Notes under the pieces: model-generated
The model's database searches: none
Told to the model about the DNA's origin: nothing
The model's input: only the letters and a program-made list of their open reading frames with translations
Program-made: the position numbers and the translations under genes
Assembly (NCBI RefSeq): GCF_937859865.1
Contig: NZ_CALMAT010000130.1
Coordinates: 62,001-126,000 of the forward strand
Source of the DNA: an uncultured Mucilaginibacter sp.
GTDB taxonomy: Bacteria > Bacteroidota > Bacteroidia > Sphingobacteriales > Sphingobacteriaceae
Direction: 5' to 3'
Length of the DNA stretch: 64,000 bases
Shown here: positions 35,072 through 63,622 of the stretch, piece by piece
How positions within the stretch are numbered: position 1 is the first letter of the stretch
Layout: each line of letters opens with the position of its first letter

Positions 35072-38000
35072 ATGAAAAAGATTTTACCTGAAAAATTTCT
35101 TCTTGTTAAAAAGCCCCCGTTTTATCTGGGGTGTATCATCCTTTTATTTATTTCCAGTTTTGGCTTTGCCAAAGGTTCAAATGGCGTTTTAGCTAAAAAC
35201 GTTTATGTTACGGGTGAAAATGCAAAGAAAATTGCTGTACCTATTAAAGGAAAAGTAACCGAACTTCTAACTAATCAAGCTTTGCCCGGTGTTTCCGTAA
35301 GAGTTAAAGGAACAAGCATTGGCGTTGTTACAGACATAAACGGAAATTTTACCATTGATGCCCCAGCCAAGTCAACATTAGTGTTTACTTATATTGGGTT
35401 TGAAACAGTTGAAACACCTGTTGACGGGAGGGGAAATTACAACATCCAATTAAAGGCATCTTCCAGTAACTTAAATGAAGTGGTCGTAGTTGGTTACGGT
35501 ACGCAGAAAAAAACTTCAGTTACTGCATCGGTGTCAACGATTAATACGGCAGAAATTGCTCAGAAACCTGTAGTAAATTTAACTAATTCCTTGGTTGGAC
35601 GGGCTTCAGGGCTTATTGCAACACAAGGAAGCGGTGAACCGGGTAATGATGGTTCTGGCCTTTTGATAAGGGGCCCTGCAACCCCTGGCCGTACCGCCCC
35701 GTTAACCGTTGTTGACGGTGTACCGCGTGATTTTAGCCGCCTTGATCCAAATACAATCGAAACCCTTACGGTATTAAAAGATGCGGCCGCAGTTGCGCCC
35801 TATGGTGTGGCAGGTGCAAACGGTGTAATATTAATTACTACAAAAGCAGGTAAATCCGGCAAACCAACCCTAACTTATAATGCTTATTATGGCATTCAGA
35901 ATCCTACAAGTGTTCCAAAATTTGTTAATTCTTATCAATATGCTATGTTAAGGAATGAAGCAATAGTAAATGATTTTACGTACAAGGGTATAGGTAGCAT
36001 TGTTAATGGCAGTCTTGCAGGACTTTACACTGCAACAGATCTTGCACTGTTTCAAAATCACCAGGATCCGGACGGCCATGCTGATGGCCACCCATTAGAT
36101 GACATTATTAAGAAAAACCGGCCAATCCAATATCATAACCTTTCCCTTTCAGGCGGTACGGATGATATTAAATATTTTGCGTCTCTTGGCTTTAACCGTC
36201 AGGATGGAATGTGGGACCCAACCTATCTTAATAAATTCAACGGTTCATTAAGTGTAACTGCAAATGCCACAAAAACAACAACGGTAAACTTAAGGGTAAA
36301 CAGTTATGAGGAAGACCAACATTATCCTGGATATAGTGCCGGAAATATCATAGGCTTGGCACAACGCCAAAACCCGACCTACCCTCTTCGGTACACGAAT
36401 GGATTAGAATCCGGCTATATAGGCGCATCGTTATATGGAGAAGTTTATAATAGCGGCTATGTAGTAAATAAAAATACAGACTTGTTTACGCAGTTATCAA
36501 TTGATCAGAAACTGCCGATTAAAGGATTAAGTATAAAAGGGGTAGTAACTTATGAAAGTGGGCCTGATCCTTTAGGATTTAGTGGTAATCAAACATCTTT
36601 CAGCCGTGCTTATATTTTGCCTGTTCCTTTTACCAATCCCCGTCTTCCTGCAGGTGTTCTGACCCCTGGGCCTGGGGTAAATTACGTTTATACGATTGGC
36701 TACCAAGGTTTTCAAAAACCTACTTTCCAAGAAAATTTCGGTGTGAATAAAATGTTTACGTACCAGGGATTGTTAAATTACGCCCGTACATTTGGTAAGA
36801 GTGATATAACTGCTGTAGCAGTAGCTGAATACCGTATAGTGAATTATCAGAATTTTTTTGCCAGGAGTATAAATTATAATTTAAGCATAGATGAGTTGAA
36901 TTATGGTGGCCCTCTTCCCACTGATGCAACTGTTGGCGGAAGTTCAGGCGGACAAAAGCAGCTTGGATATGTTTACAGGGTAGGGTACGCCTATGATGGT
37001 AAATACCTGTTTGAAGCTGCCGGAAGGTATGATGGAAGCTATGTATTTGCACCGGGACATAGGTTCGGGTTCTTTCCCGCGTTTTCTGCTGGATGGCGGC
37101 TTTCCGAAGAGAAATTTATAAAAGATAATTTTACATGGGTTGATAACCTGAAACTGCGTGCATCGTATGGACAGTCAGGTAATTATCCAAACGGAGGCCA
37201 ATATCAATATCTAAGCCAGTTTGGTGCTTATTCAAATTCTGCTGTAATTGGGCCCAGCGCTACACAAGGTATTAGCGAAAACCTTCAAGGAAACCCAAAT
37301 ATTACCTGGGAAAGATCCAAAAAAACGGATGTAGGTTTTGAAGGAAGTTTTTGGAAAGGGGCGTTTGGCATTGAAGCGGATTATTTTTACGAAAAGCGGT
37401 CTAATTTCTTGGTTGGGATTGGTGCAGTTTTACCCGCAGAATATGGTGTTAACGTAGGCCAGGTTAATGGGGGTATTTTATCAAATCATGGAGTTGAATT
37501 AACACTTACCACCTTCAAAAACTTTTCAAAAGATTTACGATTAGATGTAAAAGGTACTTTTACCTTTGCTAAAAACAAGATATTACAAATTTTTGAAAAT
37601 ACCTCGACCTTTAATAACCCTAACCGACGCCAGACCGGCAGGGCTCTGGGCGAGCAATTTGGGCTTAAGGCTTTGGGTTATTATACGCCTAATGATTTTA
37701 TAAATCCGACTTCTAAAAATCCAACATTAAAGCCAGGAATACCTACTCCGATTATCCCTCAGGTTTATCCTGGTGATATAAAATATGCTGATTTAAGCGG
37801 CCCTAATAATGTACCGGATGGAAAAATTGATGCAAACGATATTACTGATATAGGCCCTCCGCAAACTCCGCAAATTATTTACGGTATTGAACCAAGGTTG
37901 ACCTATAAAAACTTTGATCTGGACCTTCTATTTCAAGGTTCTGGGTTGAGCAGCATCGGATTGAGCAGTTATTATGTATTCCCTTTTGTAGATTCAGGTT

Positions 38001-38341
38001 CGGCTACAGAACTGGTTTATCAGAATCATTGGACACCAAATAACCCAAATGCACGATATCCCGTAATAAGTGGTACTCCCTCTCCAAATAATACACAATA
38101 CTCCAGTTGGTTTTTGAGAAATGACTCTTATATCCGGTTAAAAAGTGCTGAACTGGGCTATACTTTCTCTAATAAATTACTTGGCCATACCATACGATCG
38201 TTGAGAGTATATGCTGCCGGACAAAACATATTTTTCTGGACTCCTGCAATGAAAGAAACAATTGACCCAGAAAATAGCGGAAGTAACCAGAATTATTATC
38301 AGCAACGGGTATTATCATTAGGACTTAATGTAACCTTTTAA
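35072..38341 (+). CDS. SusC-family TonB-dependent outer-membrane transporter, pair 2
   Basis: This 1089-aa protein is closely similar to the transporter at 14630 along its length: the long signal region, the carboxypeptidase-regulatory-like domain (PIKGKVTELLTNQALPGVSVRVKG), NEVVVVGYGTQKKTSVTA, and plug motifs LTVVDGVPRDFS and GVAGANGVILITTK. The barrel ends in an aromatic Phe (GLNVTF). It imports glycan oligomers with the SusD partner 17 bases downstream. Its divergent neighbour is the hybrid regulator, the usual arrangement for regulator-controlled polysaccharide-utilisation loci. The two transporter pairs probably arose by duplication followed by divergence of the surface loops. Confidence 0.96.
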   Translation: MKKILPEKFLLVKKPPFYLGCIILLFISSFGFAKGSNGVLAKNVYVTGENAKKIAVPIKGKVTELLTNQALPGVSVRVKGTSIGVVTDINGNFTIDAPAKSTLVFTYIGFETVETPVDGRGNYNIQLKASSSNLNEVVVVGYGTQKKTSVTASVSTINTAEIAQKPVVNLTNSLVGRASGLIATQGSGEPGNDGSGLLIRGPATPGRTAPLTVVDGVPRDFSRLDPNTIETLTVLKDAAAVAPYGVAGANGVILITTKAGKSGKPTLTYNAYYGIQNPTSVPKFVNSYQYAMLRNEAIVNDFTYKGIGSIVNGSLAGLYTATDLALFQNHQDPDGHADGHPLDDIIKKNRPIQYHNLSLSGGTDDIKYFASLGFNRQDGMWDPTYLNKFNGSLSVTANATKTTTVNLRVNSYEEDQHYPGYSAGNIIGLAQRQNPTYPLRYTNGLESGYIGASLYGEVYNSGYVVNKNTDLFTQLSIDQKLPIKGLSIKGVVTYESGPDPLGFSGNQTSFSRAYILPVPFTNPRLPAGVLTPGPGVNYVYTIGYQGFQKPTFQENFGVNKMFTYQGLLNYARTFGKSDITAVAVAEYRIVNYQNFFARSINYNLSIDELNYGGPLPTDATVGGSSGGQKQLGYVYRVGYAYDGKYLFEAAGRYDGSYVFAPGHRFGFFPAFSAGWRLSEEKFIKDNFTWVDNLKLRASYGQSGNYPNGGQYQYLSQFGAYSNSAVIGPSATQGISENLQGNPNITWERSKKTDVGFEGSFWKGAFGIEADYFYEKRSNFLVGIGAVLPAEYGVNVGQVNGGILSNHGVELTLTTFKNFSKDLRLDVKGTFTFAKNKILQIFENTSTFNNPNRRQTGRALGEQFGLKALGYYTPNDFINPTSKNPTLKPGIPTPIIPQVYPGDIKYADLSGPNNVPDGKIDANDITDIGPPQTPQIIYGIEPRLTYKNFDLDLLFQGSGLSSIGLSSYYVFPFVDSGSATELVYQNHWTPNNPNARYPVISGTPSPNNTQYSSWFLRNDSYIRLKSAELGYTFSNKLLGHTIRSLRVYAAGQNIFFWTPAMKETIDPENSGSNQNYYQQRVLSLGLNVTF

Positions 38342-38358
38342 CTTTTAAAAGATAAAAC

Positions 38359-40098
38359 ATGAAATTTAAAAATATTAAACACACGCATATCTTTTTATTT
38401 GCTTTGCTTATTATAAGTATTGGCTCATGTAAAAAAGATGACTTTTTAAGCGTAGCCCCTAAAGGTGTATTAACAAGTCTTTCTACTTTTAATTCACAAC
38501 CTAACACTGAACTTTTTGTAAATGACATTTATAACAATTTGCCTGACCCAAATGGGGCTGAAGGGGAACGTATACTTGATTCCTGGACTGATAACAGTAA
38601 TGCCACGGCTGCAGGCCATGAGGGACAGGCAAAAATACGGTCTAATGCATTAAGTGCTGGTAACGCAACCGGTGGCCCGGGAGGTACTTTGGATTGGGGC
38701 GGCAATTATGGTAAAATAAGAAAATGTAATGTGTTTCTTCAAGGTGCTGCTGCCAATAAGAATGTATATGATCCAAACTGGTACAAACAGCGGGTAGCAG
38801 AAGTAAGGTTTCTTCGTGCCTTCTTTTATGCAGTTTTATTTAAAAATTACGGCGGTGTCCCATTGATTACGATACCTTTAAATAACCTCAACGGGAGTGA
38901 TATATTTACACCAAGAAGCACATCTGATCAAACGCTTGCCTTTATAGAAGCTGAATGCGACTCGGCAGCCGCAGTGTTACCTTTAAAACAGGGAATGGCA
39001 GACCTTGGCAGGCCTACAAAGGGAGCAGCATTAACCTTAAAAGGGGATGTTGAGCTTTTTGCTGCGAGCCCGTTGGTTAATACGACTAATGATGCTACTA
39101 AATGGGCAAAAGCAGCCGCAACTGAACTGGCTGTAATGAATTTGGGTGTTTACAGTTTATTTACCACATCATCAGCTACGCCTATTATTTCCACCACAGG
39201 TTCCGGTACAACCAATACCGCATATAGGGACCAGTTTTTAGCAAAAAACAACTGGAACTCGGAAACTATATTTGCACACCCGTATGCTTTGCCAAACAAG
39301 GGTAGTAAAAGGGAAGGCCTTTTAGGGCCCGTTATTGTAGGCGGGTCAGAGCAGGCTTGGGGCGGTATTTCTCCTACCCAAAACCTGGTAGATGATTATG
39401 AAATGGACAACGGCAAACCAATAACGGATCCAACATCAGGCTATGATCCCCAACATCCTTATATGCACAGGGAATCAAGATTTGAACAATCTATTGTATA
39501 TGATGGTTCTTATTGGCAGGGAGAAGTGTTTATGTCAAGGATAGGTGGTGCTAATCAAATAGATCTTGGCTCAAGTAGTGATATTTCAAACACAGGATAT
39601 AACGCCCGTAAAACATTGGATGAATCTATTAACGGTCAGTTGAGCCTTAGTCAGACCCCTAATACTGCTAATTACCAGTATTACCGTTACGCAGAAACAT
39701 TACTGAGCTATGCTGAAGCTCAAAATGAGGCAGTTGGTCCTGATCAGAGCGTTTACAATGCAGTTAACCAAGTTCGAGCAAGAGTTTTATTGCCAGCGCT
39801 TCCTCCAGGGTTAAGCCAGGTCGACATGCGGACAAACATTCGCCGTGAACGCCGGGTAGAATTGGCATTTGAAGACAAACGATGGTATGATATTAGGCGA
39901 TGGGATATTACCGTTAAAGGTCCTGCCGTTTTAAACACACCAGAGTATGGTATGTACATCACTGCAACTGGCGGCATCTTAAAATATACACCTGTCATTG
40001 TGTTTCAGAACAAATACTCAGAGTATATGAACTTTCTACCCCTATCGCAAGGTGTTTTAAGTCAAAATACAAAACTTACGCAAAACCCCGGATATTAA
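38359..40098 (+). CDS. SusD-family glycan-binding outer-membrane lipoprotein (RagB/SusD), pair 2
   Basis: This 579-aa protein has a lipoprotein signal ending SIGSC (Cys24). It follows the same plan as the paralogue at 12946: FLRAFFYAVLFKNYGGVPLIT, QTLAFIEAECDSAAAVLP, PTKGAALTLKGDVELFAASPL, RRERRVELAFEDKRWYDIRRW and the LTQNPGY end. It carries a small insertion of Ser/Thr-rich sequence near residue 275 compared with pair 1. It binds glycan at the cell surface as the lid of its SusC partner. Confidence 0.95.
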   Translation: MKFKNIKHTHIFLFALLIISIGSCKKDDFLSVAPKGVLTSLSTFNSQPNTELFVNDIYNNLPDPNGAEGERILDSWTDNSNATAAGHEGQAKIRSNALSAGNATGGPGGTLDWGGNYGKIRKCNVFLQGAAANKNVYDPNWYKQRVAEVRFLRAFFYAVLFKNYGGVPLITIPLNNLNGSDIFTPRSTSDQTLAFIEAECDSAAAVLPLKQGMADLGRPTKGAALTLKGDVELFAASPLVNTTNDATKWAKAAATELAVMNLGVYSLFTTSSATPIISTTGSGTTNTAYRDQFLAKNNWNSETIFAHPYALPNKGSKREGLLGPVIVGGSEQAWGGISPTQNLVDDYEMDNGKPITDPTSGYDPQHPYMHRESRFEQSIVYDGSYWQGEVFMSRIGGANQIDLGSSSDISNTGYNARKTLDESINGQLSLSQTPNTANYQYYRYAETLLSYAEAQNEAVGPDQSVYNAVNQVRARVLLPALPPGLSQVDMRTNIRRERRVELAFEDKRWYDIRRWDITVKGPAVLNTPEYGMYITATGGILKYTPVIVFQNKYSEYMNFLPLSQGVLSQNTKLTQNPGY

Positions 40099-40114: not shown

Positions 40115-40150
40115 AATCACAGTTCTATAATTTAGGGCTGTGATTTTTTA
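40115..40150 (+). terminator. Terminator or attenuator between susD pair 2 and GH3
   Basis: AATCACAG (40115-40122) pairs with CTGTGATT (40138-40145), followed by a T-run. It lies 17 bases after susD and ends 41 bases before the GH3 start, so it may lower enzyme expression relative to susC/susD. Confidence 0.7.
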
Positions 40151-40190
40151 TTTAACTACTTTGACAAATGACCCCACCTATTGTACCAAA

Positions 40191-42425
40191 ATGAAAACAT
40201 TATTGTCCTGCTCTTTGCTGTTTTTATCCATAGTTGTTTTTGCTCAAAAGAGGGTGCGTCCGGTTGACCCAATTGATCAAAAAGTAAAAGCCTTATTAGC
40301 AAAAATGACTTTAGAAGAGAAGGTTGGGCAACTCAATCAGTATTCAGGAACGCGAGATGTGACCGGCCCCGCAGGCGATAAAACCACAAATAAATTAGAA
40401 GATATCAAACAGGGGAAAGTTGGCGCCATGCTGAACATACGCGGAGTTAAAGAAATTCGCGCTGTTCAGGAAGTGGCTATGCAATCAAGGCTCAAGATAC
40501 CCCTGATATTCGGTTTAGATGTTATTCACGGATTTCGTGTTACCTTTCCTGTGCCATTGGGAGAAACAGCCAGTTGGGATTTAAATGCTATAGAATTATC
40601 CGCAAGATATACCGGAACGCAAGCTGCTGCAGCCGGTGTTAACTGGACATTTGCGCCAATGGTTGATATTGCCCGTGATCCCCGTTGGGGACGGGTTATG
40701 GAGGGTGCAGGTGAAGATACCTATCTTGGCTCCCTGGTTGCTAAAGCGAGGGTCAGAGGTTTGCAGGGGAAAGGCTTGGGTAACTTGGATGCCATTATGG
40801 CTTGTGCCAAACACTTTGCTGCTTATGGTGCTGGTTTGGCAGGCCGCGAATATGCTGCTGCTGATATAAGCGACCAGACATTATTGAATGTGTACTTGCC
40901 TCCGTTTAAAGCAGCAGTTGACGCCGGTGTAGCTACGTTAATGAATTCTTTCAACACGGTCAACGGTGTGCCTGCAACCGGAAATAGTTATTTACAGCGG
41001 GATATTTTGAAAGGCCAATGGCAGTTCAAAGGTTTTGTAGTTAGTGATTTTGGTTCTATCGGAGAGCTGGTTGCACATGGTTATGCCGAAAACCAGGAAG
41101 ATGCCGCACGACTGGCAATTACGGCAGGCAGCGATATGGATATGGAGAGCAGAAGTTATATCTTAAATCTTACTCGGTTAGTAAAAGAAAGGAAAATACC
41201 GGTAAGTGTTATAGATGATGCTGCTGGTCGGATTTTGCGCAAGAAATTTGAATTAGGCTTGTTTGATGATCCATACCGGTTTTGTAACGAGGAACGGGAA
41301 AAGCAAGTGTTGGGTGACTTGAATGAAAGTCTTGAAGCTGCCCGTAAAGTCGGAGCAAAAAGTATTGTACTGTTGAAAAATGAAAACCAAGTATTACCCC
41401 TTTCAAAAAAACTGAAATCAATTGCGGTGATCGGACCGTTAGCGAAATCAAATGACCTAAAAGGCGGCTGGTCTCAAGGGTGGAAGAACGACCAGATAGT
41501 ATCGCTTTACGAAGGCTTGGAGGCTAAAGTGGGAAACGGAACGAAATTGCTTTATGCGCGTGGATGCAATTTTAATGATACCCTGCGTACCGGTTTTGCG
41601 GAAGCTGTTGAAACCGCAAAAAATGCAGATGTTATTATTGCGGCTATCGGAGAATCATCCGGCATGACCGGTGAAGCCACGAGCCGTACAGATATTTCTA
41701 TTCCCGGGGTTCAGGAAGATTTAATTAAAGCGTTAGTGGCAACGGGCAAACCTTTGGTGGTATTGATTATGAGCGGGCGGCCGCTAACCTTTAACTACAC
41801 TGCAGACCATGCCAATTCCATTCTTTACACCTGGTGGCTGGGAAGTCAGTCCGGTAATTCCATGGCAGATGTACTTTTTGGGGATTATAATCCCTCCGGT
41901 AAATTACCTATTACGTTTCCAAGAGTACTTGGTCAAATCCCTATTTACTATAATGAATTAAGTACGGGCAGGCCGTTGCTAAACCCTAAAGACAGGGCTT
42001 GGAAATCAGTGTATATGGACCAGCCAAACACACCAAAGTTCGCTTTTGGCTATGGGTTAAGTTACACAACGTTCGAATATCAGAATTTAAAACTGGATAA
42101 GACCAAAATGAAAGGCACTGAAAAGCTAACGGTTACTATGGACTTGACAAATACAGGGAAATACGCTGGTGAAGAAGTGGTACAGTTATATTTACAGGAT
42201 AAATTTGCGAGTATCGCCCGTCCGGTCAAGGAGCTTAAAGATTTTCAAAAGGTGATGCTGAAACCAGGCGAAACAAAAAAGCTCAGCTTTGTGATTGATA
42301 AGCAGAAGCTTTCATTTTTTAATCAGAAGCTGAAATGGGTTGCCGAGCCGGGCGAGTTTAAGCTGATGATCGGAACCGCTTCTGACAACATCAAATTGAA
42401 AAGTAACTTTGAGTTGATTAATTAA
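40191..42425 (+). CDS. Secreted GH3 family beta-glycosidase (beta-glucosidase/xylosidase-like), first copy
   Basis: From the ATG at 40191 this is 744 aa with a signal peptide ending VVFAQ. The GH3 N-terminal barrel includes MTLEEKVGQLNQYS, DVIHGFRVTFP, and the nucleophile Asp286 in GFVVSDFGSIGEL. The second alpha/beta sandwich domain follows with SIVLLKNENQVLPL and IAAIGESSGMTGEA, then a fibronectin-III-like C-terminal domain (VVQLYLQDKFASIARPVKELKDF). It releases terminal beta-linked sugars in the periplasm. A longer frame to 40140 exists, but its first 17 residues overlap the terminator hairpin and would bury the signal peptide. Confidence 0.92.
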   Translation: MKTLLSCSLLFLSIVVFAQKRVRPVDPIDQKVKALLAKMTLEEKVGQLNQYSGTRDVTGPAGDKTTNKLEDIKQGKVGAMLNIRGVKEIRAVQEVAMQSRLKIPLIFGLDVIHGFRVTFPVPLGETASWDLNAIELSARYTGTQAAAAGVNWTFAPMVDIARDPRWGRVMEGAGEDTYLGSLVAKARVRGLQGKGLGNLDAIMACAKHFAAYGAGLAGREYAAADISDQTLLNVYLPPFKAAVDAGVATLMNSFNTVNGVPATGNSYLQRDILKGQWQFKGFVVSDFGSIGELVAHGYAENQEDAARLAITAGSDMDMESRSYILNLTRLVKERKIPVSVIDDAAGRILRKKFELGLFDDPYRFCNEEREKQVLGDLNESLEAARKVGAKSIVLLKNENQVLPLSKKLKSIAVIGPLAKSNDLKGGWSQGWKNDQIVSLYEGLEAKVGNGTKLLYARGCNFNDTLRTGFAEAVETAKNADVIIAAIGESSGMTGEATSRTDISIPGVQEDLIKALVATGKPLVVLIMSGRPLTFNYTADHANSILYTWWLGSQSGNSMADVLFGDYNPSGKLPITFPRVLGQIPIYYNELSTGRPLLNPKDRAWKSVYMDQPNTPKFAFGYGLSYTTFEYQNLKLDKTKMKGTEKLTVTMDLTNTGKYAGEEVVQLYLQDKFASIARPVKELKDFQKVMLKPGETKKLSFVIDKQKLSFFNQKLKWVAEPGEFKLMIGTASDNIKLKSNFELIN

Positions 42426-42682: not shown

Positions 42683-45600
42683 ATGTTCAATGCTTTTTTT
42701 GATTTTTTGGCCAAAGCAAATAGTCGTTCAATCCAAAAATTATTAACGCTTTTATATTTAGTATTAATAATGACATCTATTTATGGATGTCATGGTTCCG
42801 GCACGAATGAAAAAAATATAGGCCAGAACAACGAAAAAACACTGTTCAAGCTACTTCCTCCCGAACAAACGCATATTGACTTTGCCAATACTTTAACCGA
42901 AGGATTAAACACCAATGTATTAGTTTACCAATACTTTTATAATGGTGGCGGCGTGGCAACAGGTGATTTGAACGGCGACGGTTTACAGGATATTTACTTC
43001 ACCGGCAACATGACCGATAATAAATTGTATTTGAACCAGGGGCATATGCAGTTTAAAGACATTACAGCAATTGCAGGTGTGGCGGGACGACCGGGACCTT
43101 GGAAAACCGGCGTAACCCTGGTTGACATAAACGGTGATGGCAAACTGGATATTTATATTTGCTATTCTGGGAAACTGCGCGATGAAAAAAGGATAAACCA
43201 GTTGTTTATCAATCAGGGAAACGATGCCAGCGGTACGCCTCAATTTAAGGAAATGACGGCAGATTATGGCCTCGATTTTCCTTCGTACAGTACCCAGGCT
43301 TATTTTTTTGATTATGACCGGGACGGCGACCTCGACCTGTTGCTGGTAAACCACAACATACAACGCCTGAATATTTTGGATGATATTTCTGTTAAACAGT
43401 TATTGAACCAGCGCGATAACCAGTCCGGGATACGGTTATTAAGGAACGACAATGGCCACTTTAAGGACGTTTCGACAGAGGCTGGCATCGTAAACACTTC
43501 ATTATCTTATGGTTTGGCTGCTGGTATTGCAGATGTAAACGGAGACGGATGGCCTGATATTTACATTTCCAACGATTACAGCGTGCCAGACAGGTTATAC
43601 ATCAACAATGGTAAAGGAAAATTTACGGATAAGCTGACAAGCCAGATCGGGCATACTTCCTTTTATTCTATGGGCAATGATATTGCCGACATTAACAATG
43701 ATGGCGCGCCTGATATTTACACGCTGGACATGCTCCCGGAGGATAATAAGCGCCAGAAATTATTGTTCGGGGCGGATAATTATGAATCGTTTGATCTGAA
43801 TGTAAAGGTTGGCTTTTATTACCAATACATGCGTAATATGTTGCATGTTAACAATGGCAACAATACTTTTAGCGAGGTTGGGCAACTGGCAAACATCTCA
43901 AATACCGATTGGAGCTGGTCGCCTTTATTTGCCGATTATGACAACGACGGCTGGAAAGATCTTTTTGTAAGCAACGGTTATACCCGTGATTATACCAATA
44001 TGGATTTTCTAAAATTTATGGGCGATAATTTACGGAACAGGAACATAATGCGGCAGGATCTGCTGAATATTGTAAACAAAATGGAGTCATCGCAGGTGAA
44101 AGGCTATTTTTTCAAAAATAACGCCAATGCTACCTTTACGAATACCAGCGAAGATTGGGGCATAAACCGGCCTTCAAACAGTAACGGTGCAGCTTATGCA
44201 GATTTGGATAATGACGGCGACCTTGACCTGGTGGTTAACAATACCAACCTGCCAGCCTTTGTTTACGAGAACCAAGCCAGCAAACAAAATGGCAACCAAA
44301 GTTTAACGGTCAATTTAAAAGGAGCTGATGCAAATACCCAAGGGATAGGCGCGAAGGTGGTTATCTATTCGGACAATAAAAAGCAATACCTGGAACAAAT
44401 GCCTACCCGCGGTTTTCAATCCAGTGTTTCCCCGCTTTTGCATTTTGGGTTGGGAAAAGACAGACAGGTAGATTCATTGCGCATTACCTGGCAGCGCGGC
44501 AAATCGCAATTGTTGCAAAATATTAAGGCAGGCCAGCAAATCACTTTAAATGAAAAGGATGCAACTGCCATCTACACTAAAAAACAATCGGTAAAAACAG
44601 TATTCAAAGAAGTGCAGTCGCCGGTTGCATTTAAACAAAATGATAATACCACCAATGATTTTAAACGGCAGCCATTAATGGTTAACCCGATTTCCTTTTC
44701 CGGTTCGTGCCTAGCAAAAGGCGATGTAAACGGCGACGGGTTGGAGGATGTTTATGTCGGCGGACATGACGGCAAACCGGGCACATTGTACCTGCAGCAA
44801 AAGAATTTAAAGTTTGTCAATAAACCGCTTCCTTGTTTTTATGCCGATAAAAACAGTACTGATGCGGCGGCTGTTTTTTTTGATGCCAACGGCGATGGCA
44901 AGCCTGATCTTTATGTTTGTTCGGGAGGTTATGCTGATTATAAACCGGACGACGCGCTTTTGCAGGACAGGTTGTATTTGAATGATGGCAAGGGAAATTT
45001 TAGTAAATCAACAAACGCGTTGCCAAAAATGATCAGCAGCAAAAGCTGTGTAAAAGTAGCTGATCTAAACGGGGACGGGTTTCCTGACTTGTTTGTTGGC
45101 GGCAGGGTAGTTCCCGGAAGGTATCCCGAAACACCAGAAAGCTATATCCTGATCAATGACGGCAAAGGGCATTTTACCGATGAAACAACAAAATATAATG
45201 CTTCCTTAAAAAACATCGGTATGGTAACGGATGCTGCGTGGGTTGATATGAACGGCGACAAGAAGTTAGATTTGGTGGTTGTAGGCGAATGGATGCCAAT
45301 CACTGTATTTGAAAATACCGGCGGAAAACTAACAGAAGCAACTTCTAAATATTTTGATGAAAAATATGCAGGCTGGTGGAATTGCCTGCAGGTGAGCGAT
45401 ATTAACCATGATGGTCGCCCTGATTTAATTGCAGGTAACTTGGGACTTAACACCCAATGCAAGGCAACAGACCAGGAGCCGGCAGAAATGTACTACAAAG
45501 ATTTTGATGACAACGGTTCGATAGACCCGATACTTTGTTTTTACATTCAGCACAAAAGCTACCCATACGTAACCAGGGACGAGTTGCTTGACCAGATTAG

Positions 45601-46060
45601 CATGATGCGCACACGTTTCCCAGATTATAAAAGTTATGCCGATGCGACAATTGACAAGGTATTTACGCCCGAAGAAATGAAAGGGGCAAAGCAGCTTAAG
45701 GCAAATTACTTAGCTACCGCTTGTTTTATCAGCAATGCCCAAGGGAAATTGCATTCAGTTTTATTGCCGATACAGGCACAATATTCTCCGGTATATACCA
45801 TTACACCGCTTGATTATGACCACGACGGGAACGAGGACTTACTGCTTTGCGGCAATATCAACCACGGACGGCTTCGTTTTGGTAAATATGATGCAAATTA
45901 TGGTGTGTTGCTTAAAGGCGATGGCAAGGGCAATTACCGGTATGTCAACCAGCAGCTATCCGGTTTTAATTTGTGGGGAGATGTCAGGAGTGTAATCAAG
46001 TTCAACAAAACACTGCTTTTTAGTTTGGATAACAACAGAATAAAAGCATACGAACAGTAG
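42683..46060 (+). CDS. VCBS/FG-GAP repeat lipoprotein with ASPIC/UnbV domain
   Basis: This 1125-aa protein has a lipoprotein-type signal ending SIYGC (Cys36). It carries many FG-GAP/VCBS repeats with the calcium-loop signature DxNGDGxxDIY (for example GDLNGDGLQDIYF, VDINGDGKLDIYI, FDANGDGKPDLYV), forming one or two beta-propellers. An ASPIC/UnbV domain lies in the middle (about residues 525-625, ending before the second propeller). Such CRTAC1-like proteins are common next to SusC/SusD genes and are thought to bind glycans or help surface assembly; their role is not settled. The last 157 codons are repeated downstream at 48252. Confidence 0.9.
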   Translation: MFNAFFDFLAKANSRSIQKLLTLLYLVLIMTSIYGCHGSGTNEKNIGQNNEKTLFKLLPPEQTHIDFANTLTEGLNTNVLVYQYFYNGGGVATGDLNGDGLQDIYFTGNMTDNKLYLNQGHMQFKDITAIAGVAGRPGPWKTGVTLVDINGDGKLDIYICYSGKLRDEKRINQLFINQGNDASGTPQFKEMTADYGLDFPSYSTQAYFFDYDRDGDLDLLLVNHNIQRLNILDDISVKQLLNQRDNQSGIRLLRNDNGHFKDVSTEAGIVNTSLSYGLAAGIADVNGDGWPDIYISNDYSVPDRLYINNGKGKFTDKLTSQIGHTSFYSMGNDIADINNDGAPDIYTLDMLPEDNKRQKLLFGADNYESFDLNVKVGFYYQYMRNMLHVNNGNNTFSEVGQLANISNTDWSWSPLFADYDNDGWKDLFVSNGYTRDYTNMDFLKFMGDNLRNRNIMRQDLLNIVNKMESSQVKGYFFKNNANATFTNTSEDWGINRPSNSNGAAYADLDNDGDLDLVVNNTNLPAFVYENQASKQNGNQSLTVNLKGADANTQGIGAKVVIYSDNKKQYLEQMPTRGFQSSVSPLLHFGLGKDRQVDSLRITWQRGKSQLLQNIKAGQQITLNEKDATAIYTKKQSVKTVFKEVQSPVAFKQNDNTTNDFKRQPLMVNPISFSGSCLAKGDVNGDGLEDVYVGGHDGKPGTLYLQQKNLKFVNKPLPCFYADKNSTDAAAVFFDANGDGKPDLYVCSGGYADYKPDDALLQDRLYLNDGKGNFSKSTNALPKMISSKSCVKVADLNGDGFPDLFVGGRVVPGRYPETPESYILINDGKGHFTDETTKYNASLKNIGMVTDAAWVDMNGDKKLDLVVVGEWMPITVFENTGGKLTEATSKYFDEKYAGWWNCLQVSDINHDGRPDLIAGNLGLNTQCKATDQEPAEMYYKDFDDNGSIDPILCFYIQHKSYPYVTRDELLDQISMMRTRFPDYKSYADATIDKVFTPEEMKGAKQLKANYLATACFISNAQGKLHSVLLPIQAQYSPVYTITPLDYDHDGNEDLLLCGNINHGRLRFGKYDANYGVLLKGDGKGNYRYVNQQLSGFNLWGDVRSVIKFNKTLLFSLDNNRIKAYEQ

Positions 46061-46143
46061 TAATATTCATTCAAAATATTTATATATTTAAATGATTTTT
46101 TATTAATAAGCTTAGCTGTTACCACGACCTTAAAATAATAGCA

Positions 46144-47796
46144 ATGACTGCAAAAAATAGAACATTAACCATACTGATCTTGATTTCGGTTTACATATTT
46201 GCATCCTGTGAGGCTAAAAAAAATAAACCTGGCGATGTTAATGAGATCATATTAAAAACCGGGACAATTGAAATAACCAGATACGAATTCGAGAAGAATA
46301 AAAAAAAGGAACTCAGCCAGCAAAAGGAAACTGACAGCCTATCTTGGATAAAAAAATATATTGCTGATTCGTACTTTTTAGCCGATGCGTATAGCAGAAA
46401 ATATGACAGTGCTACAGTTATTAGTAAAAGGGTGAATTATGCAGCAATCACCATGATGGGTAAGTATAAAGGTTACCTCTGGAATAAAATAGAAGAACCG
46501 AAACTAACCTTTTCAGATGATGAACTAAAGGCAGTTTACCAAAAGAAGGATAAGTTGTTTCATTTGGAGTTTCTCTTATTTGACAGTAAAGATTCTTTTG
46601 ATGTAGTTTTGCGAAACAGGGCACAAATTAAAACAGAAGCTGAATTTAGAAAGATCGTTGATATAGGCACTAAAAGCCGGATTCAATATAGAAAAACTCA
46701 ACTTTTTTTTCCTTTTGGTGAACTTTCACCGGTTAAGGATGAGATTTACAGATCAACTCAGGGAAATATTATCCAAGCTCCTTTTGAAAATGGCAAAATG
46801 CTGGTGGCATATATCAGCAAAGTTGAAAAGAAAAACCAACAGCCATTTGTGGCTGAGAAGCAGAATATCTATTCGAATCTGCGACGTTTAAAAGAAAGGC
46901 AGATTATTGACAGAAAGCATGACTCTATATTCCACATAGCCGGGATAGTGATGAATGAAAGCGTAGTCCAAGCACTTTCAAAGAAGATAAAGGGTCCTTT
47001 TATTCAGGATATTCCTAAAACTATAAAGAATGATACGCTGTTGACATATTTCTTTAATAAAAAAAATCAGGCTCTTTTAATGAGAGACTTTGCGGATTAT
47101 TATCAAAATAATCCTTTTAACAAAATCATTACAAATAAAGAGGCATTAAAAGAAACGCTGAAAGGCATAGTAATAGAGAAATATCTATATGCCGACTGCC
47201 TTAAGTTTGGGCTAACAAACGACAAGCAATATATCTTAGATAGAAAGAATTTTAAAAATCGCCTTGTACTTGATGCATATTCCCGTGATAACTTTTATAA
47301 TACAAAGCCCTCTGAACAGGCTGTTTCTGATTATTATAAAGTAAATCAGCAACACTTTTTAGCACCCAAAGCGTGTCATGTTTCTGTGTTTACCTTCAAA
47401 GATATAATTGCGGCTGGGACTAACCTTTTTCATCTTGATAAAATGCTTCTGGCAGGAACAGGCAATTTTTCTGATACTTCAGCATTGAAAGGCTTATTAT
47501 CATACCGGCCTGATGTACTGCTGAGTAATAAGAACTACCCATATCAAGCAAACATGGTTGCAAATGTATTTACCGCTAAACCAAACACGGCCATTGGGCC
47601 TTTTGAATGGAATAACCGGGGATATGTTTTTGTCAAAACAAAAGAAGAAGGACAGGAACCTCTGCCCTTGGACGTTGCGAGAGAAGCAATAGAAAGGGAA
47701 CTGATAGCCGAGAACGCAGAAATATTGAAGGAAAAGAAATTAAAAGAGCTAAAGAGTAAGTATGCTCTAACAATCAATAAATTAACAACAGAATAG
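46144..47796 (+). CDS. SurA/PpiC-like periplasmic lipoprotein (peptidyl-prolyl isomerase/chaperone type)
   Basis: This 550-aa protein has a lipoprotein signal ending IFASC (Cys22). The body is highly charged and helix-rich. Its arrangement resembles SurA-like chaperones: an N-terminal SurA_N-like helical part (ITRYEFEKNKKKELSQQKETDS), repeated parvulin-like segments, and the GPFEWNNRGYVFVKTKEEGQ stretch typical of the end of a parvulin fold. I cannot confirm intact isomerase sites. It should fold or escort an exported client. It is followed 47 bases later by a small secreted protein gene; both lie between duplicated VCBS sequences and look AT-richer than their neighbours. Confidence 0.65.
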   Translation: MTAKNRTLTILILISVYIFASCEAKKNKPGDVNEIILKTGTIEITRYEFEKNKKKELSQQKETDSLSWIKKYIADSYFLADAYSRKYDSATVISKRVNYAAITMMGKYKGYLWNKIEEPKLTFSDDELKAVYQKKDKLFHLEFLLFDSKDSFDVVLRNRAQIKTEAEFRKIVDIGTKSRIQYRKTQLFFPFGELSPVKDEIYRSTQGNIIQAPFENGKMLVAYISKVEKKNQQPFVAEKQNIYSNLRRLKERQIIDRKHDSIFHIAGIVMNESVVQALSKKIKGPFIQDIPKTIKNDTLLTYFFNKKNQALLMRDFADYYQNNPFNKIITNKEALKETLKGIVIEKYLYADCLKFGLTNDKQYILDRKNFKNRLVLDAYSRDNFYNTKPSEQAVSDYYKVNQQHFLAPKACHVSVFTFKDIIAAGTNLFHLDKMLLAGTGNFSDTSALKGLLSYRPDVLLSNKNYPYQANMVANVFTAKPNTAIGPFEWNNRGYVFVKTKEEGQEPLPLDVAREAIERELIAENAEILKEKKLKELKSKYALTINKLTTE

Positions 47797-47804
47797 GAGA
47801 GAAC
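47792..47804. repeat. Left arm of a 13-bp inverted repeat around the small secreted gene
   Basis: AATAGGAGAGAAC overlaps the stop codon of the SurA-like gene. Its exact reverse complement is at 48221-48233, just past the small gene. Confidence 0.7.
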
Positions 47805-47843
47805 AACTATATATTTAAATTTTAACAACTTAAAACAAAAATT

Positions 47844-48197
47844 ATGAAAAAGTTATTAATGATTTTAGCACTTGTAGCAATTACAACAACCGGAGCATTC
47901 GCATATGACGGCTATGTTGAATGTCCTACTGATTTTCAATATCCTGATTACGGATATAATAATACAAATTCAGCAACTTATTATGATGGTATCAGCACTA
48001 GTGGCACGTTAAGTTATTCGTTATATGTGGAATATATGGGTCAAACTCAAATAGACGTAGGCGGGGGAAGAACTTGGCGAAACGGAACACCGAATTCTTA
48101 CCAGAACGGTTTTTTTACAGGCCCGTTTTCTTATGTTTATTTGTCAGCCTACTTAGGTGGCCCCGAAGGCTATTGCTCTGCCTCAGCCACATGGTAA
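47844..48197 (+). CDS. Small secreted protein of unknown function, partner of the SurA-like protein
   Basis: This 117-aa protein has a clear signal peptide (MKKLLMILALVAITTTGAFA, cleaved after residue 20). The mature ~97 residues are rich in Tyr, Gly, Ser, Thr and Asn and contain only two cysteines, Cys27 and Cys111, which could form a disulfide joining the ends. No known family is recognised. The composition suggests a small extracellular beta-structured or adhesive protein. Its position directly behind a SurA-like lipoprotein suggests it is that chaperone's client; this is inference. An inverted repeat brackets it. Confidence 0.75.
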   Translation: MKKLLMILALVAITTTGAFAYDGYVECPTDFQYPDYGYNNTNSATYYDGISTSGTLSYSLYVEYMGQTQIDVGGGRTWRNGTPNSYQNGFFTGPFSYVYLSAYLGGPEGYCSASATW

Positions 48198-48220
48198 ATA
48201 TAGGTGATCAATAACAATAC

Positions 48221-48233
48221 GTTCTCTCCTATT
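48221..48233. repeat. Right arm of the 13-bp inverted repeat
   Basis: GTTCTCTCCTATT, reverse complement of 47792-47804. It lies 19 bases before the duplicated VCBS fragment begins. Confidence 0.7.
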
Positions 48234-48251
48234 ATTTTATTTGCCATTTTT

Positions 48252-48725
48252 GACCAAATCAATATGATGCGGACGCGTTTTCCCAATTATAAAAGTTACG
48301 CAGATGCAACAATTGACAAGGTATTTACGCCCGAAGAAACGGAAGGGGCAAAGCAGCTTAAGGCAAATTACTTATCTACCGCTTGTTTTATCAGCAATGC
48401 CCAAGGGAAGTTGCATTCGGTGTCATTGCCGATACAGGCACAATATTCTCCGGTATATACCATTACACCGCTTGATTATGACCACGACGGGAATGAAGAT
48501 TTGTTGCTTTGCGGCAATATCAACCATGGTCGGCTCCGTTTTGGTAAATATGATGCAAATTATGGCATATTGCTTAAAGGGGATGGCAAGGGCAATTACC
48601 AGTATGTCAACCAGCCGCAATCCGGTTTTAATTTGTGGGGAGATGTCAGGAGTGTGCTGAGTATAAATCATACATTGTTGTTTGGTATGGATGAAGGCAG
48701 GTTAAAAGCATATAAACAACAGTAA
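48252..48725 (+). pseudogene. Duplicated C-terminal fragment of a VCBS/FG-GAP protein
   Basis: These 157 codons match the end of the VCBS lipoprotein (45590-46060) almost residue for residue: DQINMMRTRFPNYKSYADAT, LDYDHDGNEDLLLCGN, and GFNLWGDVRSV. The last 20 codons differ more. The reading frame opens at a GTG at 48204 with unrelated residues, so no signal or propeller start remains. Either a second VCBS gene lost most of its length, or a 3' duplication accompanied arrival of the two genes between the copies. Confidence 0.85.
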
Positions 48726-48755
48726 AAGCCGGATGAATCTATAGCTGAAAAAACA

Positions 48756-48846
48756 ATACTTCTTTTAGCACATAAAAATTAGTGTCAGGAATCCGGTTTC
48801 AAAAACACAGAAAGCTTCACTGTTTTTTATGCGATAAAAGAAGCAT
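48756..48846. repeat. TGCTTC palindromic element, complete
   Basis: Starts ATACTTCTTTTAGCACAT, ends TGCGATAAAAGAAGCAT. An outer AAAATTTAAACAGGCTT lies at about 48864-48880. Confidence 0.88.
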
Positions 48847-48889
48847 TGAAAATAAATCTCAATAAAATTTAAACAGGCTTTATAGACAG

Positions 48890-50224
48890 ATGAAAAAAAG
48901 TTATTTAATCATATTGTTATTATTCGGTTTGTTTTTTATTGGTAGTAGTTGCAACAAAAAGGGTCAGCCTGAATTAACGAACCGTGATGTGGGCAAGGTA
49001 ATCAGCCAAATGAGCGGGCTGATGGTTCACGACGTTACCAACCCGCCTTTGGCTGCAAGATTCTTTGCCTATACCTGTTTGGCAGGGTATGAGGTTGTAT
49101 CCGAAAACGATAAGCATATCAAAAGTATGCAGGGCGTATTAAACGAGTACCCTGCTATCAAAGCCCCAAAACAAATATCCGGTTACAATTACCAGTTAAG
49201 TACGGTGCTTGCCATGATGGAAACTGCCGGGAAATTACAACCATCCGGCAGCCTGCTCCTTAAATACGAAGAAAATTATTTAGATTCATGCAGAAGGATA
49301 GGTTTCAGCGATGAGGTAATTGATAGTTCAAGGCATTATGCACAATTTATCAGCAAAAAAATATTGGCTTATGCAAAGGCCGACAGATATAGGCAGATCA
49401 ATAATTACCCGCGTTATAAACTTAAAAATACGCCCGGAAGCTGGGAAATTACACCTCCGGCATATTTGGTTCCGGTTGAGCCTTATTTTAATACCATCCG
49501 CCCTTTAACCCTTGATTCGGCTTCGCAGTTTTTGCCCGGTTCGCCAATCCCTTTTTCTACGGATAAAAAATCTGCCTTTTATAAGTACCTCCTTTTAAAT
49601 TATGCCAAAAGCGGCAATGGTTTAAGCCAGGAAGAAAAGAACATTGCCAATTTCTGGGATTGCAACCCGTTTAATGTTCAAAACGACGGACACATGCTTT
49701 TCGGTTTAAAAAAAATCTCACCGGGGGCACACTGGATGGGAATAACCGGAATTGCCTGCAACCAGGCTAAAACTAATTTTTCTAAAACGGTAGAAATAAA
49801 TACAGCAGTGGCCGTAGGTTTACTGGATTGTTTTATTTGCTGTTGGGACGATAAGTACCGCACCAACCGCATCAGGCCCGAAACAGCTATACGCAGGTAT
49901 ATTGATGCTAATTGGAAGCCATTGTTGCAAACTCCGCCATTTCCCGAATACATCAGCGGGCATTCGGTGGTGTCAACAACCTCTGCTGTAATCCTTACCC
50001 ATTATTTGGGCGATAACTTTAAATATACGGATAATGTTGAAGTAGATTTCGGAATCCCGCCAAGGCATTTCAACTCATTTAACCAGGCTGCAAAAGAAGC
50101 TGCCATTTCAAGGTTTTGGGGAGGCATCCATTTTATGGACGCTATTGACAACGGTATTATCCAGGGTACAAAAGTTGGAAATTGGGTTATCAATAAAGTT
50201 AACAATGGAGAGAAGAAATCTTAA
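48890..50224 (+). CDS. Vanadium-haloperoxidase/PAP2-family lipoprotein
   Basis: This 444-aa protein has a lipoprotein signal ending FIGSSC (Cys21). The helical domain carries the three phosphate/vanadate-site motifs of the PAP2/vanadium haloperoxidase superfamily: KYRTNRIRPETAI (K-x6-RP), SGHS in FPEYISGHSVVS, and SRFWGGIHFMDAIDNG (SR-x5-H-x3-D). It could be a phosphatase or a haloperoxidase; the motifs do not decide. Proteins like this are often encoded beside VCBS/ASPIC proteins in Bacteroidota, as here. It lies on the outer membrane or periplasmic face. Confidence 0.88.
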   Translation: MKKSYLIILLLFGLFFIGSSCNKKGQPELTNRDVGKVISQMSGLMVHDVTNPPLAARFFAYTCLAGYEVVSENDKHIKSMQGVLNEYPAIKAPKQISGYNYQLSTVLAMMETAGKLQPSGSLLLKYEENYLDSCRRIGFSDEVIDSSRHYAQFISKKILAYAKADRYRQINNYPRYKLKNTPGSWEITPPAYLVPVEPYFNTIRPLTLDSASQFLPGSPIPFSTDKKSAFYKYLLLNYAKSGNGLSQEEKNIANFWDCNPFNVQNDGHMLFGLKKISPGAHWMGITGIACNQAKTNFSKTVEINTAVAVGLLDCFICCWDDKYRTNRIRPETAIRRYIDANWKPLLQTPPFPEYISGHSVVSTTSAVILTHYLGDNFKYTDNVEVDFGIPPRHFNSFNQAAKEAAISRFWGGIHFMDAIDNGIIQGTKVGNWVINKVNNGEKKS

Positions 50225-50445: not shown

Positions 50446-50564
50446 ATGCTTCTTTTATCACCTAAAAATCATTATGTCTTAATACTTTTTTACTTTTTTG
50501 TTCCCTATTTTACGGAGAGGGCTTGGGTGAGGTTACGCCAAATTTATAGGCATAAAAGAAGCAT
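50446..50564. repeat. TGCTTC palindromic element with long loop
   Basis: Starts ATGCTTCTTTTATCACC, ends AGGCATAAAAGAAGCAT. The loop is about 30 bases longer than usual and contains GGAGAGGGCTTGGGTGAGG. The rest of 50225-50719 shows nothing else. Confidence 0.88.
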
Positions 50565-50719
50565 TGTAAATTATTTTAATATATATTTAGCACGGCCTTA
50601 AAAAATTAAACAAAACACAAAAAGTACAGCAGGTATAGCCGCAAGTTAAAACAACCGAAAAAAATTAATATTACCTGTATAAACAATCCTTTCCAAGTAT
50701 AACATTTATAATCAAACCC

Positions 50720-62161: not shown

Positions 62162-63622
62162 ATGAACGACGGGAAATTGCGCCGCTTAACAAAACTTTGC
62201 CGTTTGGTGCTGCTGGTTTTGCTTTTACAATCCTGCGGCGGAAACCCGCAACAAACTGCGCCTCCGCCAACCAATACTTCCGTAAGTTATGGCGGAAATT
62301 ATCATACAACTTTAACCCTAACCGAAGATTTTGAGCAAGGCCACAAAGCTGCCTACGCAAGCGGAAATGTTGTTTTTAAAACCGGCAACTGGCTTTTGCA
62401 GGATGCTTTAACCGGCAGCACGGAAGCAGATTATAAAACTGGAAAGCAGTCCATCCGAATCCGTAACAATGGCAAAATCAGTATGCTTTTTGATGTAGAC
62501 GGCGCCTCGACCGTAACCGTTAAACATGCAGCTTATGGAAAGGATGGCGCTTCTATCTGGGCTTTGTTTGTGGCAATTAACGGAAGCCAGGTTTACCGGC
62601 AAGTTGGCCTTCCCATCAGTAGCAGCAGCCATATTTTACATAGTATCACTTTTTACCTTAATAAAACCGGGCGGCTTAGGTTTGAGATCCGTAAAATTTC
62701 GGGTGGCAAAAACCGTATTAATTTGGATGATTTTACGATCAGCGGGACCGGGGATATTCAAAACGAAGGCGGTACTTCGGTAAGTACGGGCGATACGATT
62801 GTGGGTACAAAACCCAAACCTACAGATTCTGTTGCCATTGGCGATAACGATAATTTATTGTGCGGCAACCCAAGCGGAGCCACGCACAGCCTCAGCAATT
62901 ACAACAATTACCTCATCAACCAAAAATATTATACCGAAAGTTACAGCCGCGATAGGTGCGGGCCAAACTGGGTTTGCTGGCATTTGGGCGCAACGGATTT
63001 GGGAAGTGCCAGCCGTTCAAACGATTTTCGGCCGGATACGAAATTGCCCGCCGGTTGGTACGAAGCGCAGGATTACAGCTATCAGGGTTCGGGTTTTGAT
63101 AAAGGCCACAATTGCCCTTCCGGTGATCGAACCAACGCGCCCGATGCTAATTCGGCCACTTTTTTACTAGACAACATTGTGCCTCAGGCGCCGTATAACA
63201 ACCAGCGTACCTGGGAACACCTGGAAAGTTTCAGCCGCGGCCAGGTGCAGCAAGGCAACGAGGTTTACATCATGATGGGCAGTTACGGGACGGGCGGGAC
63301 GGGCAGTAAAGGTTATGCCACGAGTATTGATGAAGGCAGGATCAACGTACCGGCACATATTTGGAAAGTGGTGGTGATTATCCCGAACGGCAACCAGGAT
63401 TTAAAACGCATTAACAAAAACACAACAGTGATTGCCGTGGACACGCCGAACGATAACAGCATCAACCCAAATTGGATGCAGTATATTTGCACGGTGCGCG
63501 ATATTGAAAAAAACACGGGCTACAACCTGCTTTCTAATTTGCCACAATCTGTACAGGATGCAATCGAAACCAAACGTTATGCGGGAACGCCAAAATCAAA
63601 AAGGGGTTATACCGATGACTGA
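62162..63622 (+). CDS. DNA/RNA non-specific endonuclease, lipoprotein (NucA/NUC1 type)
   Basis: This 486-aa protein has a lipoprotein signal ending LLLQSC (Cys25). A beta-sandwich region (about 45-200; FEQGHKAAYASGNVVFKTGNW) is followed by a linker and the nuclease domain (about 235-470). The beta-beta-alpha-metal motif appears as FDKGHNCPSGDR, with Lys where many family members have Arg (DRGH) and the general base His kept. NIVPQAPYNNQRTWEHLE carries the Mg-binding Asn and WxxLE motif. It would degrade nucleic acid at the cell surface, for phosphate or nucleotide supply. The TGA stop shares its last base with a minimal TGCTTC element. Confidence 0.9.
   Translation: MNDGKLRRLTKLCRLVLLVLLLQSCGGNPQQTAPPPTNTSVSYGGNYHTTLTLTEDFEQGHKAAYASGNVVFKTGNWLLQDALTGSTEADYKTGKQSIRIRNNGKISMLFDVDGASTVTVKHAAYGKDGASIWALFVAINGSQVYRQVGLPISSSSHILHSITFYLNKTGRLRFEIRKISGGKNRINLDDFTISGTGDIQNEGGTSVSTGDTIVGTKPKPTDSVAIGDNDNLLCGNPSGATHSLSNYNNYLINQKYYTESYSRDRCGPNWVCWHLGATDLGSASRSNDFRPDTKLPAGWYEAQDYSYQGSGFDKGHNCPSGDRTNAPDANSATFLLDNIVPQAPYNNQRTWEHLESFSRGQVQQGNEVYIMMGSYGTGGTGSKGYATSIDEGRINVPAHIWKVVVIIPNGNQDLKRINKNTTVIAVDTPNDNSINPNWMQYICTVRDIEKNTGYNLLSNLPQSVQDAIETKRYAGTPKSKRGYTDD

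Follow-up and report, generated by a model that had tools for sequence, protein, structure and literature searches.

Why two genes, for a SurA/PrsA/PEB4-like foldase lipoprotein and for a small secreted protein, lie together between duplicated ends of a VCBS gene within a glycan operon is the question raised by this locus (Table 1). The window is the whole stretch of 64,000 nucleotides that was analysed. We think, on balance, that 46144-48197 is a transferable two-gene unit in which a periplasmic chaperone is dedicated to a small client that is exported; the unit would serve surface glycan capture.

Table 1. Features of the locus, with positions in the window
Feature	Position	Strand	Basis
SusC (35072-38341) and SusD (38359-40098) of the same glycan operon	35072..40098	+	read from sequence
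VCBS / FG-GAP - ASPIC/UnbV protein, module inserted beside it	42683..46060	+	Pfam; relatives
Upstream copy of the repeat (intact VCBS/UnbV gene, 3' end)	45588..46060	+	repeat comparison
SurA/PrsA/PEB4-like foldase lipoprotein, 550 aa, lipobox ...FASC near residue 22	46144..47796	+	ORF; Pfam Rotamase_2; PDB-profile matches PEB4, HP0175, PrsA
First parvulin-like domain (aa ~138-228), histidine at neither active-site position	46555..46827	+	PrsA match over profile 32-285; alignment; strand/helix pattern in a low-confidence model
Second parvulin-like domain (aa 389-514), without conserved active-site histidines	47308..47685	+	Pfam; alignments
Small secreted protein, 117 aa; mature 97 aa, pI 4.1, 22% aromatic, two Cys	47844..48197	+	ORF; computed properties; relative in Maribellus
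Signal peptide MKKLLMILALVAITTTGAFA, AxA-type, cleavage inferred after AFA	47844..47903	+	sequence; similar pattern in relatives
C-terminal strand ending in Trp (CSASATW)	48174..48194	+	alignments, properties; common to nearly all small proteins
Downstream repeat copy, orphan VCBS 3' end	48250..48725	+	its end resembles module-less relative
PAP2-superfamily lipoprotein	48890..50224	+	Pfam; directly after VCBS gene in module-less relatives

The pair is an insertion in a glycan operon

A sequence-only reading of the same DNA had described duplicated VCBS sequences on both sides of an AT-richer module amid a glycan locus, and we confirmed each of these points. Sequence comparison detected the direct repeat at an offset of 2662 nt, with 332/360 identical positions (92%) in its core (45641-46000) and identity falling to ~65% over the last ~60 nt; the similarity is far above chance expectation and no second long repeat was detected in the 12 kb searched. 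Both genes between the copies are intact. The GC content is 0.351 for the foldase gene and 0.395 for the small gene, versus roughly 0.40-0.44 for most neighbours. Pfam assigned GH3, GH2, esterase, MFS, and hybrid two-component regulator genes around SusC/SusD.

Comparison with relatives lacking the module showed that the VCBS and PAP2 genes adjoin there; in a genus-mate genome they abut with no pair between them, so the foldase/small-protein pair is an insertion, which left the ancestral VCBS tail downstream. This 5'-truncated tail has a reading frame open from GTG at 48204 and probably does not have the status of a working gene.

Domain make-up of the foldase

The SurA/PpiC-like lipoprotein read earlier between the repeats was found with its lipobox and a Rotamase_2 match in the second parvulin-like domain (Pfam, E 1.3e-10). 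In the PDB-profile search the C-terminal half (profile 305-534) matched PEB4 (E 4e-13) and HP0175 (E 3.9e-6) and the N-terminal half matched PrsA (E 1.6e-5); the significant profile matches to Rotamase_2, PEB4, and PrsA place the protein in the SurA/PrsA/PEB4-type chaperone family. An hhalign comparison also matched the two halves to one another (E 6.6e-8; 0.37 for the reversed control), and the foldase is composed of two repeated N-lobe and parvulin halves, unlike the layout of these chaperones, in which a single N-lobe is joined by one parvulin domain in PrsA and PEB4 and by two in succession in SurA. A lipobox Cys in most foldases and a signal peptide in genome G544 point to an envelope location.

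Among 11 aligned foldases, the parvulin active-site histidines are conserved at neither site of either domain. These two histidines are highly conserved across parvulins (PMC2678132). Pin1 mutants without them retain some isomerase activity (PMC2678132), so their loss is no proof of isomerase loss. Judged from the parvulin-like domains without these residues, the foldase is probably a holdase rather than an isomerase. AlphaFold models of the 117-aa protein and the foldase, with alignments of the own sequence and the Maribellus relative, had mean pLDDT of 37.6 and 35.5 (very low confidence).

The small secreted protein

The 117-aa secreted protein with a signal peptide and two cysteines is as read earlier, and its lack of a match to any Pfam, NCBIfam, PHROG, or PDB family argues against membership in a characterised family. 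The single-sequence search with it gave noise only; PDB matches to influenza PA and to porin/arabinofuranosidase fragments were rejected as composition noise. No CBM or SGBP domain was matched by Pfam in 14 small proteins, and no Pfam or PDB match of weight was found.

The small proteins as a set are acidic and aromatic-rich, with mature lengths of 91-115 aa. Nearly all have a C-terminal hydrophobic strand with an aromatic residue, the trait by which outer-membrane beta-barrel proteins end; Trp, Tyr, or Phe is the last residue in 14/15 mature proteins, the 15th ending in ...SWG. The differences between small genes are concentrated at third codon positions (20, 20, and 46, versus 3-15 at the others), which shows that the small reading frame is under selection. 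Homology across clusters was not detected (leave-one-out E = 430 for the 117-aa protein), and the only clusters joined by hhalign are A and B. The small proteins may have diverged too fast for homology between clusters to be seen, or the clients could be unrelated proteins in the same slot.

Recurrence of the pair in other genomes

We detected foldase relatives in 11 other genomes of the same family and in Maribellus, which belongs to another order. Leaving aside a truncated remnant (G041), one or two small secreted ORFs lie beside the foldase at all 13 loci; the earlier reading would have been contradicted by a foldase occurring widely without the small gene, and the two genes are instead found together in Bacteroidota. 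In the fetched regions an adjacent same-strand ORF of 90-145 aa with a signal peptide accompanies 12/13 foldases, and the 13th (G714) also has its small ORF, missed by the crude filter; around ~155 other long genes, only four unrelated ORFs of that kind were adjacent, none of them Trp-ending. In G544 and G714 the small gene precedes the foldase, so the pairing is not a single arrangement passed on by descent. A single foldase has two small genes in tandem beside it in G623, G588, and G975. In G075, an additional two small genes are separated by ~12 kb from the foldase gene closest to them. Identity declines in parallel for the foldase and the small protein (93/89, 56/57, 54/54, 49/56, and 42/33%).

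The profile search matched small proteins in 9/261 same-family genomes, a count that covers only near relatives of the small protein, and 9/9 carry the foldase. The profile was built from mature sequences; a version with signal peptides matched 150/251 genomes, mostly via the signal peptide. The foldase is absent from ~97% of same-family genomes, its presence is patchy (5/94 genomes in one genus), and it is closer to a foldase of another order (42%) than to those of its own family (27% or less). When the foldase was searched for across the phylum and the class, the matches outside the family were limited to weak, generic PPIC relatives, and none of the four inspected had a small secreted ORF beside it. 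The pairing recurs in roughly nine separate lineages and another order.

The glycan-operon setting is itself recurrent. Most loci are in SusC/SusD glycan operons, often xylan-type; the genes next to most loci are SusC/SusD or putative GH10/esterase genes, and 12/14 loci (the remnant counted) adjoin SusC/SusD operons or xylanase-like genes; SusC/SusD were not found near the G567 locus.

Discussion

To the sequence-only reading the analysis adds a double PrsA/PEB4-type foldase without parvulin histidines, an insertion with the VCBS tail left behind, and the recurrent glycan-operon setting. That reading had proposed a dedicated chaperone with its exported client: the pairing recurs and the adjacency is kept, while the client relation is what we infer. 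The two-half lipoprotein, anchored in the envelope and probably a holdase, would take up the small protein on its exit from the Sec channel; recognition might be through the hydrophobic C-terminal strand and Trp, as SurA recognises outer-membrane-protein ends. Held soluble in this way, the small protein would fold, form its disulfide, and be delivered to the outer membrane or across it. In its mature form (~10-13 kDa, rich in aromatics, probably all-beta) it might then act in glycan capture for the host operon, at the surface or outside the cell. A wider version is rather doubtful and offered tentatively: an undescribed envelope delivery system, in which every double-parvulin lipoprotein, dead as an isomerase, would bring a hypervariable Trp-ending partner of ~10 kDa to the surface for glycan capture or coating, and the pair would travel as a single cassette among the glycan operons of Bacteroidota from different orders.

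Known systems resemble the pair in part. The C-terminal half of the foldase aligns over the N-lobe, parvulin, and C-helix layout of PEB4/Cbf2 and HP_0175, the Campylobacter/Helicobacter SurA-like chaperones, which are single units keeping the histidine motifs, whereas the foldase is a two-unit lipoprotein without them and linked to one small gene. PrsA of Gram-positive bacteria is a lipoprotein of one unit with several clients and, to our knowledge, has no fixed neighbouring small gene; it shares the lipid anchor and parvulin type with the foldase, whose N-terminal half aligns with it. PrsA-type proteins are reported to act on exported proteins post-translocation (PMC11253611). Some foldases match Pfam SurA_N, and two parvulin-like domains and a possible preference for aromatic C-terminal strands recall SurA, but the foldase has two N-lobes instead of one, a lipid anchor in most members, and no housekeeping distribution. 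The T9SS PPI subunit and BamJ/BamK are Bacteroidota envelope PPIases attached to export or assembly machines (PMC10994853, PMC12578637). Compared by description, they are parts of general machines, unlike the foldase, and the 117-aa protein has no match to the T9SS C-terminal sorting domain in the NCBIfam scan. In dedicated chaperone-client pairs such as the lipase-specific foldase with lipase, or PrtM with PrtP, the chaperone gene lies beside a single exported client; the clients there are other proteins, and here the partner is tiny and hypervariable.

Both genes could serve the glycan operon and not each other, the foldase acting on SusC/SusD or exported enzymes and the small protein being an independent glycan-binding accessory. 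The location of 12/14 loci fits this, but at G567 the pair has no SusC/SusD nearby, the foldase is missing from most SusC/SusD operons, the identities of the two proteins drop in parallel, and the small genes adjoin the foldase and not a fixed enzyme, so we regard separate roles as unlikely. Somewhat less probable is a secreted bacteriocin-like antagonist with the foldase lipoprotein as maturation factor or self-protection, expression with the glycan operon timing its release to feeding. Hypervariable small proteins, tandem copies, and patchy spread fit an arms race, as does horizontal transfer, to which the closer relative in another order points. Against it, a separate immunity gene was not seen, the small protein matches no known family, the location within glycan operons is recurrent, and in closely related pairs the small protein and the foldase have diverged to about the same extent, the small protein no faster.

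With its alternating hydrophobic pattern and a final Trp, Tyr, or Phe, the C-terminal strand resembles an outer-membrane-protein end, and the small protein might be a BAM-inserted outer-membrane subunit, several copies forming a pore or fibre, with the foldase as a private SurA. The PEB4-like half of the foldase is consistent with this, as is the finding that BamA of Bacteroides co-purifies with SurA and two further PPIases (PMC12578637). Yet a closed barrel would usually be longer than 91-115 aa, no match to a porin family passed the cut-off, and the sole hint of a multimer is the tandem paralogs, which leaves this explanation quite improbable. An unrelated small ORF standing by chance beside a stray foldase between two recombined repeats would agree with homology of the small proteins not being demonstrable across clusters; the repeated adjacency, co-occurrence, parallel divergence, and third-position excess argue against it, and the recurrence of the pair effectively refutes it.

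No paper describing the foldase/small-protein pair was found in the open-access literature, with few subscription journals covered, in line with the earlier impression that it is not a described system. Bacteroidota glycan operons are viewed as transporters, binders, enzymes, and sensors. If the chaperone-client reading is true, a chaperone that is private to a small exported protein would be a new type of part for them, one recruited repeatedly, and a natural set of one-chaperone/one-client pairs, with clients from 89% identity to no detectable similarity, would allow mapping of recognition, for instance of the C-terminal Trp strand. The foldase relatives also include intact-looking short forms of 426-444 aa, in which the second domain is largely deleted.

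Insertion of the module

Window self-comparison detected a direct repeat of the VCBS/UnbV gene tail (offset 2662 nt), with 332/360 bases identical over 45641-46000 and ~65% identity across the final ~60 nt. As claimed in the sequence-only reading, the copies enclose a foldase gene and a small secreted protein gene; the two genes are 47 nt apart. The AT-richness noted in that reading was confirmed (GC 0.351 and 0.395, respectively, versus ~0.40-0.44 for most neighbours).

Features of the module and its surroundings in the window
Feature	Position	Product or setting
GH3 gene	40140-42425	SusD-VCBS interval
Repeat, upstream copy	45588-46060	end of intact VCBS/UnbV gene
Foldase lipoprotein gene	46144-47796 (+)	550 aa; between repeat copies
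Small secreted protein gene	47844-48197 (+)	117 aa; between repeat copies
Repeat, downstream copy	48250-48725	orphan VCBS tail
Extra intergenic DNA	48726-48889	orphan VCBS tail to PAP2 gene
Endonuclease gene	62162-63622	DNA/RNA non-specific endonuclease lipoprotein
Operon order		SusC-SusD-GH3-VCBS-[module]-PAP2-GH2-GDSL and SASA esterases-MFS

The foldase is present in one copy in the source genome and was not found in either of two genus-mates. The module separates two genes that are neighbours in relatives lacking it: in the genus-mate G002 the VCBS/UnbV gene (protein 88% identical) stops 5 nt short of the PAP2 gene, and in G015 the distance is 2 nt. The orphan VCBS tail ends GMDEGRLKAYKQQ, similar to the G002 end, GMDEGKLKAYKQP; the tail of the intact VCBS gene upstream terminates differently, in SLDNNRIKAYEQ. 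From these ends we infer, as the simplest reading, insertion by recombination within the VCBS tail in a single-crossover type of event: the incoming DNA would have carried the module downstream of a VCBS-type tail, and the original tail would have been left beside PAP2.

The extra intergenic DNA before PAP2 amounts to ~160 nt, versus 2-5 nt in the relatives, and its part 48834-48882 resembles the intergenic stretch 50552-50600 (71% alike). At the equivalent position G002 lacks the GH3 gene, so gains or losses in the operon go beyond the foldase/small-protein pair.

Recurrence of the pair

When 301 same-family genomes were searched with a foldase profile built from four members, complete or partial relatives were detected in G075 (two loci), G041, G529, G544, G567, G588, G608, G623, G662 and G714; a genus search (5/94 genomes positive) added G975, and a genome-contig scan found a 42% identical foldase in Maribellus maritimus, of another order. 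DNA reading showed one or two small secreted ORFs adjoining the foldase at every relative locus except G041, upstream of it in G544 and G714. The G041 locus (G041:C2, ~96.8-97.9 kb, L023/L028), a truncated foldase remnant beside a SusD gene with no small gene, is a decaying copy. The G608 foldase consists of two ORFs of 143 and 355 aa (G608:C11, L094 7712-9290), either frameshifted recently or misassembled; the locus is otherwise nearly identical to that of G662. No small ORF was found beside four weak generic PPIC relatives from a phylum search, three adjoining TonB-receptor-type genes (L030, L031, L033) and one in a PPIC/SurA gene cluster (L032).

A crude filter (adjacent, same-strand, 90-145-aa ORF with signal peptide), applied to 17 regions with 169 long genes, passed a small ORF beside 12 of 13 foldases, these loci being partly non-independent (~nine lineages); alongside the other ~155 genes it passed four unrelated ORFs, none ending in Trp. 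Foldase and small-protein identities drop in parallel (93/89, 56/57, 56/54, 54/54, 54/50, 49/56, 42/33%), the exception among near pairs being the second G075 locus versus G567 (47/25). The window and Maribellus small proteins align 5.7 SD over shuffles; where foldase identity drops under ~35%, small-protein pairs mostly score at shuffle level, save those with the second G075 locus. Most changes between near small genes fall at third positions, indicating that these genes are coding.

A profile built from the mature parts of 15 small proteins hit 9/261 same-family genomes (E<=1e-4), each of which also has the foldase; this count is partly circular and of limited reach, since a profile of the others missed the window protein (leave-one-out E 430) and profile comparison joined only the small-protein clusters A and B (E 3e-6). 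For the same reasons our claim is a single foldase family whose small-protein slot is constant, rather than one proven small-protein family.

Properties of the two proteins

The mature small proteins have 91-115 aa, pI 4.1-5.4, 12-22% aromatic residues, 39-57% Y+G+S+T+N, one to three Cys and scarce Lys/Arg. An alternating hydrophobic stretch leads to a terminal Trp, Tyr or Phe in 14/15 (for example SASATW, KVTATW, YVSVSW, TVTVDWY and TATLTWW); the fifteenth ends ATISWG. No convincing match was found in Pfam, NCBIfam, PHROG or PDB, and structure prediction of the window protein gave an unusable model.

The foldase contains Rotamase_2 and, in some members, SurA_N (Pfam). Against PDB sequences its N-terminal half matches PrsA and its C-terminal half PEB4 and HP_0175; the halves are also similar to one another (hhalign probability 94.6, E 6.6e-8; reversed control 0.37), so the foldase consists of two fused units. 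The histidine pair that is strongly conserved among parvulins (PMC2678132) is not conserved at the equivalent positions of the first or the second domain across the 11 aligned foldases. Most of the second parvulin domain is absent from the G623, G588 and G975 foldases, whose ORFs are nevertheless open and have small partners. Taken together, these observations favour a holding chaperone over an isomerase, although Pin1 variants lacking these histidines retain part of their activity (PMC2678132). Most members have a lipobox; few have two acidic residues after the Cys, the mark of surface lipoproteins (PMC12578637), making a periplasm-facing anchor more likely.

The earlier idea of a dedicated chaperone with its exported client is strengthened: the pair is real, recurrent and mobile, and it resembles such a chaperone and client. 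Chaperone-client pairs and the SurA/PrsA superfamily are already known; the double histidine-less foldase, its hypervariable Trp-ending partner and their recruitment to glycan operons are, as far as could be told, undescribed.

Glycan-operon setting

Another GH3 gene and a hybrid two-component regulator lie near the window operon. In G662, G608, G623, G588 and G975 the pair has a putative GH10 xylanase gene on one side and an esterase-like gene on the other (outside the window, enzymes were named by eye); in G075, G529, G544 and Maribellus it comes after SusC/SusD, either immediately or with one or two genes intervening. This recurrent setting suggests a glycan-related surface role as the default, rather than a demonstrated function. 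G567 is a clear exception, and in G714 the glycan-type neighbour is a SusD-like ORF only.

Two extra small Trp-ending proteins of 111 and 130 aa are encoded side by side in G075 (G075:C95, ~236.1-237.0 kb, L087 11090-12035), upstream of a SusC/SusD pair and ~12 kb away from the closest foldase gene; a single foldase may therefore act on small proteins in trans. In G567 an ORF neighbouring the pair (L089 6792-8240) resembles, by eye, the window endonuclease lipoprotein.
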